DNA from: a virus
DNA length: 35,202 bases
Reading direction: 5' to 3' (one strand)
IMG/VR virus record: IMGVR_UViG_3300041402_000312
Span: 1-35,202 of that record
The translations under genes were made by a program, and so were the position numbers. The notes under the pieces are model-generated. The model did no database searches. It was not told the DNA's origin and was given only the letters and a program-made list of their open reading frames with translations. This document shows positions 6,605-31,734 of this stretch, in pieces (position 1 is the first letter of the stretch; every line of letters begins with the position of its first letter).

Positions 6605-6837
6605 TGTCCTCCTCCTCGTTCACGTTTTTCGATGTCGATCACCGACACGACCGGCGCGCCTGGCCGATACTGGTCGCGGATCTTGATGTAGGCGTCGCCG
6701 ATCTCGCCGGCGTCTTGCATCCAGGCGACGGTCGCGCGGCCGGCCTTCTGGGCTCCGGCCAGGGTATCGCCGAAGACTTGCTCGACGATCTTCTGGCTCG
6801 GGCCGCGGGCGCGGATGATGACGCGGAAGCGGATCAT
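6601..6837 (-). CDS. Small protein of unknown function
   Basis: 78 aa starting MIRFRVIIRA. The ATG at 6837 shares one base with the TGA of the upstream PP-loop gene (TGATG); a GTG one codon earlier is an alternative start. The pattern is a beta strand, a long amphipathic helix (about 13-45), then strands. No family recognised. It belongs to the five-gene - strand unit running from 8113 to 6168. Confidence 0.55.
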   Translation of the reverse strand: MIRFRVIIRARGPSQKIVEQVFGDTLAGAQKAGRATVAWMQDAGEIGDAYIKIRDQYRPGAPVVSVIDIEKRERGGGQ

Positions 6838-7817
6838 CACGCACACGTCCGAAGGTCGGCCGCGTTCCCGCCGTCGGCGACCTGGAGCTCGTCGGCCCGG
6901 CGAAGAAGCTCTTCGCGGTTCCCGATGAAGTTCCCGTCGGCGTCGACGATATGGTTGAGCCGCGCGAAGTGGTTCCAGGCGAAGCTCCGATTCAGGCCGA
7001 CGGTGATCGACGTGGTCGGCCATTGGTCGGCCGGCTTGTTCACGAAGTCCTCCCAGTCCTTGCCGTAGGTGCACTCGTCCGAACCCCAGCGGCTATGTCT
7101 TCCAGTCATGGCGCGATGTTCGATCTCGAGCGCCTTGAGGAAGAGATCCGGATGAGTTCCGGCCAGCCAGTAGAGCTCCCACACCTGGGAGGCCGGGCAA
7201 AAGAAGCAAGCCGATTTAATCGGAACCTCCAGGCCTTCGGCGACGATCGTCGCGATGCAATCTCCGCGAGTCATCCCGAGGTCCTGGAGCGGGTACGAGT
7301 ACAGGAAGAACTCGTCCTCGCGCTTCACGTTCTTCGAGCGGCGGAGGTCGGCCGGGCCGGCATCGTAGCCGAGGAGCTTCACGATCTTCTTCCCCTGGTC
7401 GAGCGCCTCCTGATAGACCGGATGGCGGGCGTAGGTGTACGGGCCCTTGCTCTTCCCCTTGAGGAAGTAGTCCTGGGGGTCGGCCTTCCACTTAATCGAG
7501 CATGACTTCTTCCCGAACGCCAGGCTCGGGAGCGTCTCGTTCTTGTAGTTGTTGCCGACCAGGGTCTTGTAGCCGGTCTCGGCCTTCGGGATCTTCTTCA
7601 CCCAGGTCACGAGCGGGAAGCCCTGGGCCTTGAGCCAGACGTCGATCTTCCGGACGGTCTCATAGGTCTCGGGCTTCTCGGCGCCGACGTCGGCGAACGT
7701 GATCGCGTCGGGGACGATGCCGGCGTCGCGGAGCTTGATGAGCATCGCGGTCGAGTCGACGCCGCCGCCATAGCAGACGACGACGCCGTGGTGATTTTTC
7801 GGGAGGCGGATCTTCAT
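6837..7817 (-). CDS. PP-loop ATPase, PAPS-reductase family
   Basis: 326 aa. A PP-loop, GGGVDST, lies at residues 17-23 after a first beta strand, as in N-type ATP pyrophosphatases of the PAPS reductase family, which adenylate or transfer sulfur to substrates. Further signatures are C106 (KKSCSIKWK) and the pair C204/C207 (ACFFCPASQ), likely metal or Fe-S ligands. The C-terminal Cys motif of true assimilatory PAPS reductases is not seen, so a role in nucleoside or DNA modification is as likely as sulfur assimilation. It overlaps both neighbours by 1-4 nt. A second, divergent family member lies at 8777-9589. Confidence 0.75.
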   Translation of the reverse strand: MKIRLPKNHHGVVVCYGGGVDSTAMLIKLRDAGIVPDAITFADVGAEKPETYETVRKIDVWLKAQGFPLVTWVKKIPKAETGYKTLVGNNYKNETLPSLAFGKKSCSIKWKADPQDYFLKGKSKGPYTYARHPVYQEALDQGKKIVKLLGYDAGPADLRRSKNVKREDEFFLYSYPLQDLGMTRGDCIATIVAEGLEVPIKSACFFCPASQVWELYWLAGTHPDLFLKALEIEHRAMTGRHSRWGSDECTYGKDWEDFVNKPADQWPTTSITVGLNRSFAWNHFARLNHIVDADGNFIGNREELLRRADELQVADGGNAADLRTCA

Positions 7818-8113
7818 GATGTGAAGGTCTCGCCAGTGATGAGATCGACAACGGTCTCGCCAGGTCCGAAGGCCGCGCGGAGCTCGTAGGCCCGCTCGGC
7901 TTTTTCGTCTTCGGTCATCGGGTTCGCCAGGCGATGAGCGCGGATCGAGCGGATCAGGTTCGTGGTCTCGATCTCGCGGGCTTCGACATGGCTCGCCAGG
8001 ACGTCGCCGCTCAAGCCGTGATTCTCTTCAAGGTAGTCGGCGAAGGGGATCTGGTTGTTCGACTCGAAGCGGATGATGCCATTGAGGTCGGTGTAAGTGG
8101 GGAAGGTCGTCAT
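7814..8113 (-). CDS. Hypothetical protein, first gene of the PP-loop unit
   Basis: 99 aa, acidic and mostly helical after a short strand-rich start (MTTFPTYTDL). No family recognised. The start chosen is the ATG at 8113 because AAGGAG lies 7 nt upstream; an in-frame ATG at 8134 coincides with the predicted transcription start and would give 7 extra residues. The stop overlaps the PP-loop gene ATG (ATGA). It stands directly behind the operator-bearing promoter at 8134. Confidence 0.6.
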   Translation of the reverse strand: MTTFPTYTDLNGIIRFESNNQIPFADYLEENHGLSGDVLASHVEAREIETTNLIRSIRAHRLANPMTEDEKAERAYELRAAFGPGETVVDLITGETFTS

Positions 8114-8133: not shown

Positions 8134-8183
8134 TGGTTCCAGTGTAGCGAGTCCCGCTACATCCGTCGGTGACGTGGTTCACA
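8134..8183 (-). promoter_or_regulatory. Early promoter with operator and CRP-type site (leftward)
   Basis: Reading leftward: TGTGA-N6-TCAC (8183-8169), operator TGTAGC-N7-GCTACA (8161-8143, perfect 6-bp arms), and -10 hexamer TACACT (8146-8141) overlapping the second arm. There is no TTGACA-like -35. The predicted start is 8134, which puts the centre of the TGTGA/TCAC element at -41.5, the class II CRP geometry. The leader to ATG 8113 is 21 nt and holds AAGGAG. The same module, nearly base for base, stands at 13523-13565 on the other strand. Confidence 0.72.
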
Positions 8184-8776: not shown

Positions 8777-9589
8777 CTACTTTTGGATCGAATTGATTCG
8801 AGCGGCCAGGGTCTCGCCGGAGAACATCGTGGTCCGAACATCGGCCTCGAGGTCGGCGAGCTTCTGGAGTAATTCAGGGCGGGCTTCGGCGCCGCGAGCC
8901 AGGTCGCCGCGACTTCCGAAGATGCAAAACACACACGAGAGGCGGTCGTTCCCGGCGTCGTATGCCGGATGACGTTCTTGACCCTTCGCTTCGATCTCGT
9001 TCCAGACCTGGGCGATTGTCCAGTCGGCGATCGGCCAATAGTCGAACGCCTGGCGCTTCGAGTTCGTGTTCTTCGTGTTGACGTTCAAGGTCCCGCGGTC
9101 GGCGATTTTCTTCGCGCGGACCGGGCTCTCCTCGGCGCGGATCCCGACACAATTCACGACGATCGCGTGGTCGCCCTGGGCCCGGATCACTTTCCAGATC
9201 GGGCCCGTCTTGAGGTCGGATGTACAGAAGCGAGCGGCCGAGCTCGGGAACGCCGGCGCGTCGGTCTTGCCCTTCGAGTCCAGTGAAGCGCGACGAGCGC
9301 GGACGGCTGAGAAGAAGTCCTTCTTCGATCCGTCGGCGTGGATCGCCTGGGCGACGAGGAGTTCCTTGTCGTCGATGTTCGAGCGGATGAAGCCCTTGAC
9401 GTTCTCGTGCTCGATGTCGCCGAGGTCGGCGTGAACGACGTGTAACTGGTCGGCCGGGACGAGCGTCGAGAGGATCGCGAACATCGCCTGGGAGTCCTTG
9501 CCTCCAGAATGACCGACGAAGAACTGGGCGCCCTTCTCGATGAGGTCCTGGATCTGGGTGAGGTTCGTGACTTGATTCGTGGTGTCCAT
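8777..9589 (-). CDS. PP-loop ATPase, PAPS-reductase family, second copy
   Basis: 270 aa. The PP-loop HSGGKDS is at residues 27-33 after a short strand. GIRAEES at about 149-155 and YWPIADWT at 184-191 are the usual family blocks (ribose/sulfate pocket and P-x-x-D-W-T strand). C122 (FCTSDLK) and C219/C222 (CVFC) form the same Cys layout as in the protein at 6837-7817, although the two are otherwise very different. It lacks the active-site Cys motif of assimilatory PAPS reductase. The start is ATG 9589, the only in-frame Met near the promoter. No Shine-Dalgarno is present; the message is probably leaderless. Confidence 0.75.
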   Translation of the reverse strand: MDTTNQVTNLTQIQDLIEKGAQFFVGHSGGKDSQAMFAILSTLVPADQLHVVHADLGDIEHENVKGFIRSNIDDKELLVAQAIHADGSKKDFFSAVRARRASLDSKGKTDAPAFPSSAARFCTSDLKTGPIWKVIRAQGDHAIVVNCVGIRAEESPVRAKKIADRGTLNVNTKNTNSKRQAFDYWPIADWTIAQVWNEIEAKGQERHPAYDAGNDRLSCVFCIFGSRGDLARGAEARPELLQKLADLEADVRTTMFSGETLAARINSIQK

Positions 9590-9596
9590 GTATTGA

Positions 9597-9638
9597 AGTG
9601 TAGCAAGCGCCGCTACAGAAAACCAGACCCGTGTCACA
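9597..9638 (-). promoter_or_regulatory. Early promoter with operator, probably leaderless (leftward)
   Basis: Leftward: TGTGA-N6-TC (9638-9626, one good CRP-type half-site and a degenerate partner), operator TGTAGC-N7-GCTACA (9617-9599, perfect arms), and extended -10 TGCTACACT whose hexamer is 9602-9597. The predicted start is 9590, one base before the ATG. It is divergent from the promoter at 9723-9743, with 183 nt between the two start codons. Confidence 0.65.
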
Positions 9639-9722
9639 GTTTTGGCAACCCGGCCCAGTGTTTACGCGGCTTTCGTCGATCGTGGTGAGTTATGTCAAAC
9701 GGCGAGCCGTTCCTGGTCTCGT

Positions 9723-9743
9723 CGTTGCGGCTCGTGCTACACT
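9723..9743 (+). promoter_or_regulatory. Early promoter with operator before the Cro-like gene (rightward)
   Basis: Extended -10 TGCTACACT with hexamer 9738-9743; the predicted start is 9750, giving a 23-nt leader with a GAGG Shine-Dalgarno. The operator is degenerate here: CGTTGC-N7-GCTACA (9723-9741), two mismatches in the upstream arm, same spacing and same overlap with the -10 as at the other sites. No CRP-type element and no clear -35. Confidence 0.6.
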
Positions 9744-9772: not shown

Positions 9773-9997
9773 ATGAAACAAGTCACCCTTCGCCAGGCCC
9801 GAGTCGACTCCGGCCTCACGGCCGAGGCGATCGCGGACCGCGCCGGGATCCACCGGACCACGCTCCACCGGATCGAGTCCGGGCTCATGCTTCCGAAGCG
9901 TGAGATCGCTCGCCGGCTCTTCGCCGTCTACAACGGCCGCGTCCCGCTCGGCTCGATCTACGATCCGGAGTTCGCCGGCGAAGTGAGGACGCCATGA
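9773..9997 (+). CDS. Cro/C1-type (XRE) helix-turn-helix regulator
   Basis: 74 aa. Residues 5-55 are a standard XRE fold: LRQARVDSGLTAEAIADRAG is helices 1-2 and the turn, IHRTTLHRIESG the recognition helix, followed by LPKREIARRLFAVY. There is no C-terminal dimerisation or cleavage domain, so it resembles Cro more than a CI repressor. It heads the rightward early unit and lies 30 nt behind an operator that overlaps its own promoter, so autoregulation and control of the four other operator copies is the simplest reading (inference). The stop overlaps the next start (ATGA). Confidence 0.8.
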   Translation: MKQVTLRQARVDSGLTAEAIADRAGIHRTTLHRIESGLMLPKREIARRLFAVYNGRVPLGSIYDPEFAGEVRTP

Positions 9998-11054: not shown

Positions 11055-12083
11055 ATGAACGACAAGACCGAACCGTCGGCCGTTCCGGCCGTCATCAACA
11101 ACCTCATCGAGCCATCGGTTCCCCAGGTCCGCTCCGCGTTCGACCTGGCGCCGCAACAATTCAAGGCCGGCCTCGACCGCCGGAAGAAGAACCGCGACGC
11201 CCTCATGACCTGGATCCGCGAGAGCCTGGTCGAGGGGACCGACTGGGGCCGGATCCACGTCGTCAAGCGCGACGTGTGCGACGCCGGGAAGTGGTGCTCG
11301 AACGCTTACCACTTCTCGAAGCCGTCCTTGTGGAAAGCCGGCGCGGAGAAGATCGCCGGCATGATGGGCCTCCGCCCGACCTGGCCGAACCTGGACGAAG
11401 AGATCGACCGGATCCGGGAAGGCGCGAAGATCATCATCTTGAAGGCCCAGCTCCTCGACCTGGGCGGCTCGACCGTCTCCGAGGGCATCGGCGCCCGTGG
11501 CCTGGACCAGGACAACAACGACGTCAACAAGTCGCTCAAGATGGCGAAGAAGAGCTCGCTCATCGACGCCGTCCTCAACGCCGGCGGACTCTCGGAGGTC
11601 TTCACCCAGGACGTCGAGGACATGAAGCCGGAGGACTTCGGCGACGGCGGCGCGGACCCATACCAGAAGGGCGAGGACCGGATCGACTCGGCCATGCCGG
11701 CGCATAGCGGGAAGCCGCTCTCGTCTCATTGTCCGATCGGGAAGGAGTGGCGGAACGTCCCCTGGGAGGAAGTCGACGAGGGCTTCCTCTCCTGGATCCT
11801 GGAGAAGATCGACGACAAGCCCGAGCTCGTCGCCAGGGCCCGGAAGGAACTCGAGAGCCGCTCGGTCGAGACCCAGGGCGCGAAGGATCGGCGCCTGGAT
11901 GCTAAGATCGCGGAGCCGAAGAAGAAGCTCTCGGAGTACGCCCGCGACCTTACCGAGGCGACCACGTTCGACCAGCTCATCATCATCAAGGAAGACATCC
12001 CGGCCGAGCTCGAGCCGTCGCTCCGGACTTTCATCGCAACACGAGAAGCCGAACTCGGCCCAGATTCATCAATCGGCGCGTGA
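11055..12083 (+). CDS. Recombination-associated phage protein with ExoX-like C-terminal domain
   Basis: 342 aa. Residues 35-110 carry the pattern of a widespread phage family near recombination genes: DALMTWIRESLVEGTDWGRI, a Cys-containing insert, then SLWKAGAEKIAGMMGL (the L-x-K-x-GAEK signature). Residues about 157-195 continue with VNKSLKMAKKSSLIDAVL and FTQDVEDM, also typical. Residues about 225-268 (CPIGKEWRNVPWEEVDEGFL, then SWILEK) match the small ExoX-like C-terminal domain (G-K-x-W-x-x-x-P...YL-W-I). It may act in single-strand annealing or as a nuclease partner; no catalytic domain is visible. Strong Shine-Dalgarno GCAGGGAG. Confidence 0.6.
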   Translation: MNDKTEPSAVPAVINNLIEPSVPQVRSAFDLAPQQFKAGLDRRKKNRDALMTWIRESLVEGTDWGRIHVVKRDVCDAGKWCSNAYHFSKPSLWKAGAEKIAGMMGLRPTWPNLDEEIDRIREGAKIIILKAQLLDLGGSTVSEGIGARGLDQDNNDVNKSLKMAKKSSLIDAVLNAGGLSEVFTQDVEDMKPEDFGDGGADPYQKGEDRIDSAMPAHSGKPLSSHCPIGKEWRNVPWEEVDEGFLSWILEKIDDKPELVARARKELESRSVETQGAKDRRLDAKIAEPKKKLSEYARDLTEATTFDQLIIIKEDIPAELEPSLRTFIATREAELGPDSSIGA

Positions 12084-12100
12084 GGCGCCAGGAGGACATC

Positions 12101-12817
12101 GTGGAATTATCAACTCAGAAGAACCTCGCGATCGCGGAGCTCACCCCGATCGTCACCGACATCGCGGCCTTCGCCGGCACGATCGAGGGGATCGACGTCA
12201 CCGACGAAGAGACCCAGGGGCAAGTCGGCGACCTGGTCAAAATGATGCAACACCGCCGGCGCAAGATCGAGGACAAGCGCGAGAGCCTGGTCAAGCCGCT
12301 CAACGCCGTGGTCCGCGAGATCAACGCGCTCTTCAAGCCGCCCCGCGATCAGATCGACAAGATCGTCGCGATGGCGAAGAAGAAGATGACGCGCTTCGCC
12401 CAGGCCCAGGTCGCGATCGCGAACGAGGCGAAGCGCCAGGAACGCGAGAAGGCCGAGGCCGAACGCCGTGAGGCCCAGGAGCTCGCCGACGCGCTCCGGA
12501 AGAAGGCCGGCCAGGATGCCGTCCAGGTCGCCCAGGTCGTCCAGGAGGAAGCCGAGAAGAAGGTCGAGGTCGCGGCGAAGCCGGCGAAGGTCGCCGCCAC
12601 ACGCGGCCAGGAGTCGACGGTGATCGTGACGAAGACCTGGAAGGCCGAGGTCGTCGATCTCCTCGAGCTCGCCAGGGCGATCGCCGACGGCCGGGCCCCG
12701 ATCACAATGATCGAGCCGAACATGAGGGCGCTCCAGGACTTCGCGCGCGAGCTCAAGGACGAGGGAACGGTGAACGGCGTCCGGATATATCTCGACGTCT
12801 CGACGAGCGTCCGATGA
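12101..12817 (+). CDS. Coiled-coil protein, DUF1351-like, partner of the 11055 gene
   Basis: 238 aa from the GTG at 12101, chosen for AGGAGG 5 nt upstream; a GTG at 12080 overlapping the previous stop would add 7 residues. Residues 15-165 are almost entirely helical and charged (KIEDKRESLVKPLNAVVREI, then Glu/Arg/Ala repeats), a long coiled coil. The C-terminal 70 residues form a compact alpha/beta part (TVIVTKTWKAEVVDLLEL...). This plan, next to a recombination protein, resembles DUF1351-type phage proteins. Biochemical role unknown. Confidence 0.55.
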   Translation: MELSTQKNLAIAELTPIVTDIAAFAGTIEGIDVTDEETQGQVGDLVKMMQHRRRKIEDKRESLVKPLNAVVREINALFKPPRDQIDKIVAMAKKKMTRFAQAQVAIANEAKRQEREKAEAERREAQELADALRKKAGQDAVQVAQVVQEEAEKKVEVAAKPAKVAATRGQESTVIVTKTWKAEVVDLLELARAIADGRAPITMIEPNMRALQDFARELKDEGTVNGVRIYLDVSTSVR

Positions 12818-13430: not shown

Positions 13431-13465
13431 GAGGCCTCGCCCGTGAGGGGCGGGGCCTCTTTTCT
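13431..13465 (+). terminator. Rho-independent terminator of the 11055-to-13373 unit
   Basis: Stem GAGGCCTCGCCC / GGGCGGGGCCTC (13431-13442 and 13448-13459; 12 pairs with one T-G), loop GTGAG, then TTTTCTT. It lies 58 nt past the last stop. The loop sequence is shared with several leader hairpins further on. Confidence 0.87.
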
Positions 13466-13522
13466 TACATAAGCCCGAGAACCGGCTGGAGGCCCCGGAT
13501 TTCCTCACTTGTTGCTCTAAAC

Positions 13523-13565
13523 TGTGAACCACGTCACGGACGACTGTAGCCGTAACCGATACAAT
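13523..13565 (+). promoter_or_regulatory. Promoter with operator and CRP-type site (rightward)
   Basis: TGTGA-N6-TCAC (13523-13537), operator TGTAGC-N7-GATACA (13545-13563, one mismatch), -10 TACAAT (13560-13565, 5 of 6 to consensus) and no -35. The predicted start is 13572, which centres the TGTGA/TCAC element at -41.5. The leader to ATG 13591 is 19 nt and holds AAGGAG. It is nearly identical to the leftward promoter at 8134-8183, including flanking AACCACGTCAC and GACG bases. Confidence 0.75.
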
Positions 13566-13590
13566 GGTTATAGTAATTAAGGAGACCCAC

Positions 13591-13803
13591 ATGACGAACG
13601 ACAACACCTTCATCAACGACCACGGCTTCGACCGCGTGGACCTCGACGGCAAGACCTACAAGGTCTCGAAGCATCAGATGAGAGAAGACACCGAGGCCTT
13701 CTTCCTGGTCTGGCTCTACGGCCGAAGCTCCGAGGCGATCTACAAAAGCCACAAGGGCGCGCTCGCCGCCATCAAGCGAGGCCGGATCAAATACGACCGA
13801 TAG
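13591..13803 (+). CDS. Small protein transcribed alone, function unknown
   Basis: 70 aa, charged and mostly helical (YKVSKHQMREDTEAFFLVW, then SHKGALAAIKRGRIKYD). AAGGAG lies 6 nt before ATG 13591; an ATG at 13564 lies inside the promoter and is rejected. It has its own operator/CRP-type promoter and its own terminator, so it is a monocistronic, tightly controlled gene. No family recognised; size and control suit an early host-takeover or regulatory peptide (inference). Confidence 0.68.
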   Translation: MTNDNTFINDHGFDRVDLDGKTYKVSKHQMREDTEAFFLVWLYGRSSEAIYKSHKGALAAIKRGRIKYDR

Positions 13804-13817
13804 ACCCCGCACCCCAG

Positions 13818-13843
13818 GCCCCGCTCCGGCGGGGCTTTTTTTT
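13818..13843 (+). terminator. Rho-independent terminator of the 13591 gene
   Basis: Perfect 7-bp stem GCCCCGC / GCGGGGC (13818-13824 and 13829-13835), TCCG loop, then eight Ts (13836-13843), 15 nt past the stop. The last two Ts also form the start of the next promoter's -35. Confidence 0.92.
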
Positions 13844-28782: not shown

Positions 28783-31734
28783 GTGGCGAACCTCCTCACC
28801 GATCTCAGTCTCACGACCTCGCACACCTTGACGGGGTCCTGGGCGGACATCGCCGGCATGAGCGACACGGTCGACATCGCCGGGCCGGACTCGGTCGTCC
28901 TTCTCATGATGTCGTTGAATCCTGTATTCCCGAGCGGCGACGCCTCGGCCGACTATCGCTTCACCGAAGGCGGGAGCCGTGTCGGTCCCGCCATCACAAG
29001 CTACTCCGACGGGACGGACGAAGGCGACGGGCGGACCCTGATCCACGCGCTCACCGGACTCTCGGCCGGGAGTCACACCTTCGCGGTCCAGGGCGAGAAC
29101 CGATCAGGGGCGGCGACGGCGATCGACACCGCATACGTCCGGACCTTCCAGATCATCGAGTTCGCCAGCGGCGCGGAGATCCTGGTCGACCTCGAGACGA
29201 TGGTGGCGAACTCCGCGCCGGGCAGCTTCGCGAACATGGTGGACCTCTCGGCGAACGCAACGCCGACGGCCGGCTCGATCTTGCTCTTCATCCACGGCTC
29301 CCAATGCGAAGACAATAGCTCCGACCAGGTCGCCGAGCATCGGTTCGCGATCGACGGGGCTCGAGACGGGCCGCGCTCGGCTCAGACGATCGACAACATC
29401 GACGAATTGACGGGCGTGACGATGGCCTGGGCCGAGACTGGCGTCTCCGCGGCGTCCCATGCGTTCTCGATCCAGTGGATCGCCCTCACCGGCTCGCCCG
29501 TCATGGACACCTTCAAGCCGCGGACCTTCCAGGTCGTCGAGATCACGGCCGACGCGGATCTCCTGGTCGACTTGTCCTCGCTCACGAACAACACGTCGCC
29601 GGGAAGTTATGCCGATATGCCAGGGATGAGCGGGACGCCTTCGATCGACTCGGTCAACTCGATCGCGCTCACGCTCGGCATGGTCACGCCGAAGGGAGGA
29701 ACTGACACGACCTGGGACAATCGCCTCGCCATCGGCGGGATCCAGGAAGGGGCCGAGATGACCGTCTACGCGGACGACCTGGAAACCCTTGAGGACCGCG
29801 CGAACAATGCCGCCATGATCCGGGCCGTCACCGGCGAGAGCGGAGCGACGACCTTCGCGCTCCAGTGGCAAACACGAGGCGCGGCCGGCGAGACATCGAC
29901 CAGGCGCGAGCGGACCTTCCAGGTCATCGACATCGTCGGAGGGAACGATCCGATCGCCGGCTCGATCCCCTTGACGCTCACGCCGACCGCCGACCTCAAC
30001 GGGATCGGCGAGCTCGCCGGCTCGGCGGATCTCGATCTCACGCCAGCGGCAACGATTCAAGCCCAGGGCGAGCTCGCCGGATCCGCGGATCTGGTTCTCG
30101 ACGCCGCGGGGACCGCCCAGGCGAAGGCCGAGCTCGCCGGCTCTTCCGATCTCACGCTCACGCCGGCGGCCACGATCCAGGGCAAGGCCCAGCTCGCCGG
30201 CTCTTCCGATCTCACGCTCACCCCGGCCGCGACGATCCAGGCCCAGGGCGAGCTCGCCGGCTCCTCGGACCTCGAGCTCACGCCGGCGGCCACGATCCAG
30301 GCGAAGGGCGAGCTCGGCGGATCGGCGGATCTGGTTCTCGACCTGGCGGCCGACCTCGCCGGGAAGGCCGCGCTCGCCGGCTCTTCCGATCTCGCGCTCG
30401 ACGCGGCGGCGGATCTCCGGGCGACCGGAGCTCTCACCGGCTCCTCGGCGCTCTCGCTTCTTCCAGCGGCCACGATCCGGGCGACCGGAGCCCTCGCCGG
30501 ATCCGCGAACCTGGTCCTCACGCCGCTCGCGACCCTCCAGGCGACCGGAGCCATCGCCGGGACGATCGGCCTCATCATCACGCCGGCCGCGACAATTCGC
30601 GCGACTGGCGAGCTCATAGGCGACCTGGCGCTCGTCTTGACGCCGACGGGGAACCTCCAGGCGGTCGGCGGGAACCTGGCCGGCGTCATCCCGCTCGTCT
30701 TGACGGCGACCGGAACGCTCTCGGCCCTGGGCGCCCTGGCTGGCGCCGCCTCGATCACGATCACGCCTTCGGGAACGCTCCAGGCGACCGGAGGCCTCCT
30801 GGGGAGCCTGGCCTTGACGATCACCCTCGCCGGCGACCTGGTCGCCCTGGGCGAGCTCCTGGGCGGCCTGGACCTGGTTCTCGCGCCTTCGGGAAGTCTC
30901 GGGGCCCAGGGCGAGCTCATCGGCTCGATCGACATGGCGCTCCTCCCCGCGGCGACCCTCACGGCCCTCGGCCAGCTCATCGGATCCTCGGCCCTGGTCA
31001 TCACCCCGACCGGCGCCCTCGAGGCCGTAGGAGGCCTCGCTGGGACGATCCCGCTCCAGCTCATCCCCTCGGGAAGCCTCGAAGGGCTCGGCGCCCTGGC
31101 GGGCTCCCTGGCGCTCGTCATAAGCCCGACGGGCGACCTCCGAGCGATAGGACCGCTCGCCGGCACGATCGCGCTCGCCTTGACCGCGGCGGCCGATCTC
31201 AACGCGACCGGCCGGCTCTCCGGCGGCTTAACGATGACGATCACCCCGACCGGGACGATCGTCGCCGAAGGCGTTCTCGCTGGATCCGCGGCCCTGGTCT
31301 TGACCGCGACCGGGCGCCTGGTCTCACCTGGCGACCTCGCCGGCACGATCGACCTCCTCATCGACCCGAGCGGAACGATCGCGGGGATCAGTGGCATCGC
31401 CGGCACGATCCCGCTCACGCTCACCCCGACCGGGACCGCGGTCGGCCTGGGTCAACTCGCCGGATCCGCCCAGCTCACCCTCCTCCCGAGCGGCGCGCTC
31501 CGCGGAGTCGGCGACCTGGCTGGTCTCATCAATCTCGCCCTCACGCTCGACGGGATCATCTTCGACCAGGGCGCGGTCCGGATCCCCAACTCGATCCAGA
31601 CCTTGATAAACTTCCTCGAGAACACCCGCCAGGATCTCGAGGCCGGACAACTTAACAGCCTCCAGGATCTCGACATCGGGCGGCTCAATAGCCTCCAGGA
31701 TCTCATCGCCGGGCGGCTCAACTCGACCCAGTAG
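28783..31734 (+). CDS. Giant repeat protein, putative virion fibre or decoration
   Basis: 983 aa from a GTG with no Shine-Dalgarno, which is odd for this genome. Residues 4-127, 133-254 and 260-384 are three copies of one beta-sandwich-like module, each ending in R-T-F-Q-(I/V)-(I/V)-(E/D). Residues 391-931 are 27 tandem units of 20 residues (consensus L-A-G-S-x-x-L-x-L-T-P-x-x-T-I-x-A-x-G-x), probably a beta solenoid. The last 50 residues carry an 11-residue repeat (GRLNSLQDL). Position between capsid and connector genes suggests a head- or neck-attached fibre; function unproven. Confidence 0.6.
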   Translation: MANLLTDLSLTTSHTLTGSWADIAGMSDTVDIAGPDSVVLLMMSLNPVFPSGDASADYRFTEGGSRVGPAITSYSDGTDEGDGRTLIHALTGLSAGSHTFAVQGENRSGAATAIDTAYVRTFQIIEFASGAEILVDLETMVANSAPGSFANMVDLSANATPTAGSILLFIHGSQCEDNSSDQVAEHRFAIDGARDGPRSAQTIDNIDELTGVTMAWAETGVSAASHAFSIQWIALTGSPVMDTFKPRTFQVVEITADADLLVDLSSLTNNTSPGSYADMPGMSGTPSIDSVNSIALTLGMVTPKGGTDTTWDNRLAIGGIQEGAEMTVYADDLETLEDRANNAAMIRAVTGESGATTFALQWQTRGAAGETSTRRERTFQVIDIVGGNDPIAGSIPLTLTPTADLNGIGELAGSADLDLTPAATIQAQGELAGSADLVLDAAGTAQAKAELAGSSDLTLTPAATIQGKAQLAGSSDLTLTPAATIQAQGELAGSSDLELTPAATIQAKGELGGSADLVLDLAADLAGKAALAGSSDLALDAAADLRATGALTGSSALSLLPAATIRATGALAGSANLVLTPLATLQATGAIAGTIGLIITPAATIRATGELIGDLALVLTPTGNLQAVGGNLAGVIPLVLTATGTLSALGALAGAASITITPSGTLQATGGLLGSLALTITLAGDLVALGELLGGLDLVLAPSGSLGAQGELIGSIDMALLPAATLTALGQLIGSSALVITPTGALEAVGGLAGTIPLQLIPSGSLEGLGALAGSLALVISPTGDLRAIGPLAGTIALALTAAADLNATGRLSGGLTMTITPTGTIVAEGVLAGSAALVLTATGRLVSPGDLAGTIDLLIDPSGTIAGISGIAGTIPLTLTPTGTAVGLGQLAGSAQLTLLPSGALRGVGDLAGLINLALTLDGIIFDQGAVRIPNSIQTLINFLENTRQDLEAGQLNSLQDLDIGRLNSLQDLIAGRLNSTQ
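29953..31575 (+). repeat. 27 tandem 60-bp coding repeats
   Basis: Twenty-six 60-bp units and one 63-bp unit keep the reading frame and encode 20- or 21-residue repeats. The first eight units (to about 30432) are the closest to each other at DNA level; later units diverge strongly while keeping L-x-G and T-P positions. This is consistent with recent amplification at the 5' end. Confidence 0.85.

Follow-up and report, generated by a model that had tools for sequence, protein, structure and literature searches.

CRP-type dyads in place of a -35 element, with superimposed candidate phage operators, at promoters of a lineage of metagenomic phages

The window, that is, the whole 35,202-base stretch of viral DNA analysed, contains two promoters (P1 and P2) in which a TGTGA-N6-TCAC dyad lies upstream of a -10 hexamer that is overlapped by another dyad, and the question raised by this locus is which proteins read the two elements. 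Escherichia coli CRP binds TGTGA-N6-TCACA, and an earlier note on this DNA had proposed that the promoters are turned on by a host CRP/FNR-family activator and turned off by a phage repressor. The features of the promoters and of the units behind them are collected in Table 1.

Table 1 Promoter elements, genes and terminators of the P1, P2 and P3 units and of the HTH gene
Feature	Position in window	Strand	Basis
P1 CRP-type dyad TGTGA-N6-TCAC, centre near -41.5	13523..13537	+	sequence and family alignment
P1 candidate operator TGTAGCCGTAACCGATACA, overlapping the -10	13545..13563	+	
P1 -10 hexamer TACAAT, without a -35	13560..13565	+	
Intrinsic terminator upstream of the P1 unit	13431..13459	+	
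70-aa gene, single-gene unit behind P1	13591..13803	+	
Intrinsic terminator closing the P1 unit	13816..13837	+	
P2 CRP-type dyad TGTGA-N6-TCAC	8169..8183	-	
P2 candidate operator TGTAGCGGGACTCGCTACA	8143..8161	-	
P2 -10 hexamer TACACT, without a -35	8141..8146	-	
99-aa gene, first in the P2 unit	7814..8113	-	
326-aa PP-loop protein (PAPS-reductase-like, phrog_424), second in the P2 unit	6837..7817	-	
P3 CRP-type element TGTGACACGGGTCTG, one good arm, right arm degraded	9624..9638	-	
P3 candidate operator TGTAGCGGCGCTTGCTACA	9599..9617	-	
P3 -10 hexamer TACACT, without a -35	9597..9602	-	
PP-loop gene (PAPS reductase domain PF01507) behind P3, predicted near-leaderless start at 9589	8777..9589	-	
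Candidate operator CGTTGCGGCTCGTGCTACA at the HTH gene's own promoter (-10 TACACT, 9738-9743)	9723..9741	+	
74-aa HTH protein of Xre type, putative repressor of P1-P3 and of its own gene	9773..9997	+	

The dyads of P1 and P2 are both TGTGAACCACGTCAC and are the sole exact matches to TGTGA-N6-TCAC in the window, against 0.06 expected per window in simulated sequence matched for dinucleotide composition; they stand on the strands and at the positions given in the earlier note, with the first T of the dyad 37 nt from the -10 in both. With the base after TCAC, the right arms of P1 and P2 are TCACG and TCACC, not the full TCACA. A dyad with a -10 at 36 or 37 nt was found in none of 300 simulations having the window's dinucleotide make-up. 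The absence of a -35 from both promoters, also claimed in the note, was confirmed, the best hexamer at spacers of 15 to 19 matching TTGACA at 3/6 positions, which is ordinary for random sequence here. The dyad across the -10 is likewise real, with 16/19 self-complementary positions in the P2 operator, a level reached by 0.03% of the 19-mers of the window, and 14/19 in the P1 operator, reached by 0.4%. An alignment of the two promoter copies spans about 81 nt at 74% (window 13519-13597 compared with the near-identical contig L003), and they agree in all six bases of the spacer and in lying 37 nt from the -10; because these spacer bases are not contacted, P1 and P2 look duplicated, as the note had held, with one probably copied from the other, and the pair alone is therefore weak evidence.

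Both promoters of the earlier note are thus present, but a third, P3, at 9638 on the minus strand, had been missed. P3 has a dyad-to--10 spacing of 36 nt and stands back to back with the 74-aa HTH gene. The statement that the dyad is centred at exactly -41.5 suits the 37 nt of P1 and P2 with the start site assumed, whereas 36 nt, the commoner spacing, found at P3 and in most relatives, fits about -40.5 on the same assumption. A start codon lies 6-7 nt past the -10 at window 9587-9602, at about 3008-3022 in L016 and at about 9552-9566 in L035, and P3-type transcripts are therefore predicted to have little or no leader. A rightward -10-like hexamer (TAAAAT, TAGAAT, CAAGAT or TGGGAT) also occurs, about 36 nt to the opposite side of the dyad and followed by a conserved ATCAAGG, in window 9640-9700, in L035 9587-9625 and in the equivalent intergenic region of L037, L038, L039 and L041, and in intergenic regions of this type a pair of divergent promoters may share one dyad; in window 9640-9700 both the arm and the rightward hexamer are degraded. 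An RTTATGtc element is kept between the divergent promoters at window 9688-9696 and at the equivalent place in L035-L041.

Relatives were available from metagenomes only (L016/L038, L035, L036, L037, L039/L040, L041/L042, L054/L076, L067/L068, L075, L077 and L078) and are divergent, syntenic phages with a core protein about 55-84% identical. Their accessory genes differ, and the same promoter design recurs across them all the same, so that the composite module, for which the note had suggested a search of other phages, does extend beyond the window. In 12 phage stretches totalling 220 kb, TGTGA preceded TA[CT]N[ACT]T by 36 or 37 nt in 12 of the 30 pairs counted over 100 distances, the other distances averaging 0.18; the binomial P (3e-13) serves as a guide only, since at least one pair (L075) is probably chance and some of the promoters are orthologous. 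With a looser -10, L039/L040 (GACAAT) and L077 (GACACT) fit as well. Exact TGTGA-N6-TCAC occurred 12 times in the same 220 kb when counted by strand, two L067 sites and one L078 site being full palindromes that are each counted twice, and spacers N4, N5, N7, N8 and N9 and scrambled controls gave 0-1; ten of these 12 fall in promoters, and one exact L067 dyad is not at a promoter of this type.

The consensus of nine promoters is wwCTGTGAC-N4-gTCACg, with informative arms, a variable centre and A/T flanks within a 66% GC genome. None of the nine contained a convincing -35 when scanned, the best match being 4/6 once and the others 1-3. A perfect TGTGA-N6-TCACA is present in L067 (TTATGTGATCCCCGTCACATTG) at 36 nt and in L078 (TGTGAACTCCGTCACA) at the HTH gene, the latter 49 nt from the -10 and accompanied by a -35-like hexamer, TTGCTA. 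The promoter-proximal arm is often TCACG or degraded. Several points run against the proposed model: most copies fit -40.5, the L078 dyad at the HTH gene has the longer spacing just given, the left arm alone is retained at P3, at both L016 promoters and in L077, and the CRP-type site is absent from L075 and L076. Two positions have the right spacing and are otherwise a misfit, 6947 in L075, which looks like chance, and 6342 in L016, which is doubtful. A collection-wide scan for the full composite returned the phage family and low-GC (33-37%) contigs, the latter apparently unrelated and taken as chance. L005, a phage of another kind (57% GC), has a homologue of the 99-aa protein of the P2 unit with 44% identity, and within L005 9868-9931 a perfect TGTGACACGCTTCACA precedes by about 62 bp the start predicted for this homologue from TTGACT-N17-CATAAT; this single case, noted post hoc, hints at a site near the class I position.

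The operator across the -10 behaves differently from the upstream dyad. The recognition helix RTT of the HTH protein (window and L035) pairs with TGTAGC or TGTATC in the operator, RPT or KPT with [TC]GTCCC or [TC]GTCTC, RAT with TGTCGC and RGT with [TC]GTGGC, and the HTH gene's own operators match the leftward operators better when paired by phage than when shuffled (permutation p = 0.013). The TGTGA arm is constant across phages whose -10 operator and recognition helix differ, and since the operator tracks the helix while TGTGA does not change, two factors are indicated. On the simplest reading the phage HTH protein would recognise the -10 operator, and an outside factor common to the phages would recognise the upstream dyad. 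The note's claim of a phage repressor acting at these promoters thereby gains a candidate, whose gene adjoins P3 and whose recognition helix varies with the operator, and matching operators at its own promoter and at P1-P3 suggest a Cro/CI-like module. A lysogeny switch is not indicated, because a tyrosine integrase (PF00589) was found in 0/12 phage records, some of which may be fragments.

The upstream dyad is CRP-type by its strict N6 spacing; LexA-type and other known dyads were rejected on misfitting arms or spacing. The CRP/FNR DNA-binding domain HTH_Crp_2 was detected in 0/12 phage records, which may be incomplete, against 14/14 control genomes, and the activator of the dyad is probably supplied by the host. 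At -41.5, CRP sites of class II overlap the -35 and in many cases take its place (PMC6301791), and activation by a host CRP/FNR-family protein is inferred from the correspondence of a CRP-type site near -41.5, replacing the -35, to this arrangement. We put a probability of about two in three on host CRP/FNR-family activation of class II type combined with phage HTH repression at -10-only promoters. Such a promoter would be defined by a -10 lacking a -35 partner, by a phage operator across that -10 and by a CRP-type dyad at about -40.5 or -41.5; the host protein on the dyad would recruit RNA polymerase in the class II manner, substituting for the -35 contact, and the 74-aa HTH protein would bind the 19-bp operator across the -10s of P1-P3 and across its own -10, closing the promoters. 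Accessory cassettes (the 70-aa protein and the two PP-loop units) would then be expressed only with the host activator active and the repressor low, that is, they are probably switched on via host physiology and off via the phage. The stronger form, a lineage-wide AND-NOT gate in which obligate host CRP/FNR activation replaces the -35 and phage HTH repression acts at a diverging operator while the host-factor site stays fixed, is evenly balanced between true and false. The earlier note's pairing of a host activator with a phage operator is thus partly upheld, by recurrence, strict N6, the missing -35, the perfect L067 and L078 dyads and the lack of a CRP/FNR domain in the phage records searched.

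Among the alternatives, an unlikely one is that a different host factor, or an unrecognised phage protein, recognises TGTGA-N6-TCAC and works from it as a class II activator. Some genes conserved in the phage family have no assigned function, and several copies retain the TGTGA arm alone; yet the strict N6 and the full TGTGA-N6-TCACA of L067 and L078 are those of a textbook CRP site, the 12 phage records yielded no CRP/FNR domain of their own, and the motif is constant while the phage HTH protein diverges. Slightly less likely again is that a host CRP/FNR-family protein on the dyad mainly represses, the promoters opening when it is inactive, as at pir of phage T1. Host cAMP-CRP does repress the pir, dam and recE promoters of T1 (Laganenka 2019, PMC6737242), and the effects of CRP at -40.5 in E. 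coli are mixed, comprising activation, no effect and, at some promoters, repression (PMC6301791). Here, however, nine promoters are without a -35 and would be expected to be weak absent an activator, and the dyad holds an activator's distance to the -10.

It is very improbable that the 74-aa HTH protein occupies both dyads, as an activator upstream and as a repressor at the -10, like C proteins or lambda CII/CI-type switches. The C proteins of restriction-modification systems, small and of Xre type, use one operator for activation and the adjacent one for repression, and the two dyads are about 22-23 bp apart, but the sequences of the dyads differ, only the -10 operator tracks the recognition helix while the upstream dyad is constant, and the operator at the HTH gene's own promoter is unaccompanied by a dyad at 36/37 nt. 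Two CRP-like matches arising by chance in a duplicated promoter would draw on the likeness of P1 and P2, which are not independent; with the fixed-spacing recurrence at P3 and in several divergent phages, and spacing and N-length controls near zero, this is scarcely credible, and chance is refuted for the sequence pattern, function being a prediction from it. Host CRP/FNR-family activation with phage HTH repression accordingly remains the preferred reading.

The 70-aa gene, which has a promoter and a terminator to itself, occupies a variable slot adjoining the lysis genes, and in relatives this slot is vacant or taken by a different gene. A search of the viral collection gave no relative for the 70-aa protein, and P1 could therefore not be traced in orthologues. 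The anatomy of the P1 cassette is like that of a moron, an accessory cassette, and the early expression assumed in the note is not established for a moron-like unit placed beside lysis genes. The leftward accessory region contains two PP-loop (PAPS-reductase-like) genes, 6837-7817 and 8777-9589, each in a unit behind such a promoter. Elsewhere, in the late region, 60-base repeats (20-residue units) occur within a 983-aa ORF at window 29954-31500.

Searches of phage records with portal, terminase, tail, HTH and core proteins, and of sampled sets of about 400 genomes with capsid, HTH and core proteins, gave only distant matches or none. The portal is about 40% identical to that of Queuovirinae (Nipunavirus, Pseudomonas phage PaMx25), in which the terminase-portal-head order is alike; this structural kinship does not extend to the HTH gene and the core gene at 12080-12817, which had no match in 50,697 phage records. 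The promoters resemble E. coli class II promoters of the galP1 type (PMC6301791) in having TGTGA-N6-TCAC(A) at a predicted centre of about -41.5, overlapping and replacing the -35, and a recognisable -10, and differ from them in that the proximal arm is often TCACG or degraded, many sites fit -40.5, a phage operator encloses the -10 and the activator is inferred. As in T1 (PMC6737242), a host metabolic regulator and a phage regulator would jointly control phage promoters, but CRP represses in T1, whereas the geometry here predicts activation, and no relationship to T1 was seen in the searches made. CtrA sites occur in phages of Alphaproteobacteria, with binding and regulation shown by experiment (Mascolo 2022, PMC9437464); host master-regulator sites, putative ones here, are concentrated in promoter regions across phages in both cases, while the regulator differs and the evidence in the present case is from sequence.

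Host regulators at phage promoters are thus already known, CRP in T1 (PMC6737242) and CtrA (PMC9437464). What appears new is a CRP-type promoter without a -35 that recurs throughout a phage lineage and is overlaid by a diverging phage operator, a design not found in a literature search of incomplete coverage. The located literature has host CRP repressing phage promoters, in T1, and the comparative sequence evidence points here to a conserved activator-dependent design, for which little or no transcription from these promoters is predicted in hosts without the activator. The constancy of the host-factor site against the divergence of the phage operator provides a simple comparative test that separates host from phage inputs, and an activator-dependent design would couple the accessory genes of these phages to host physiology.
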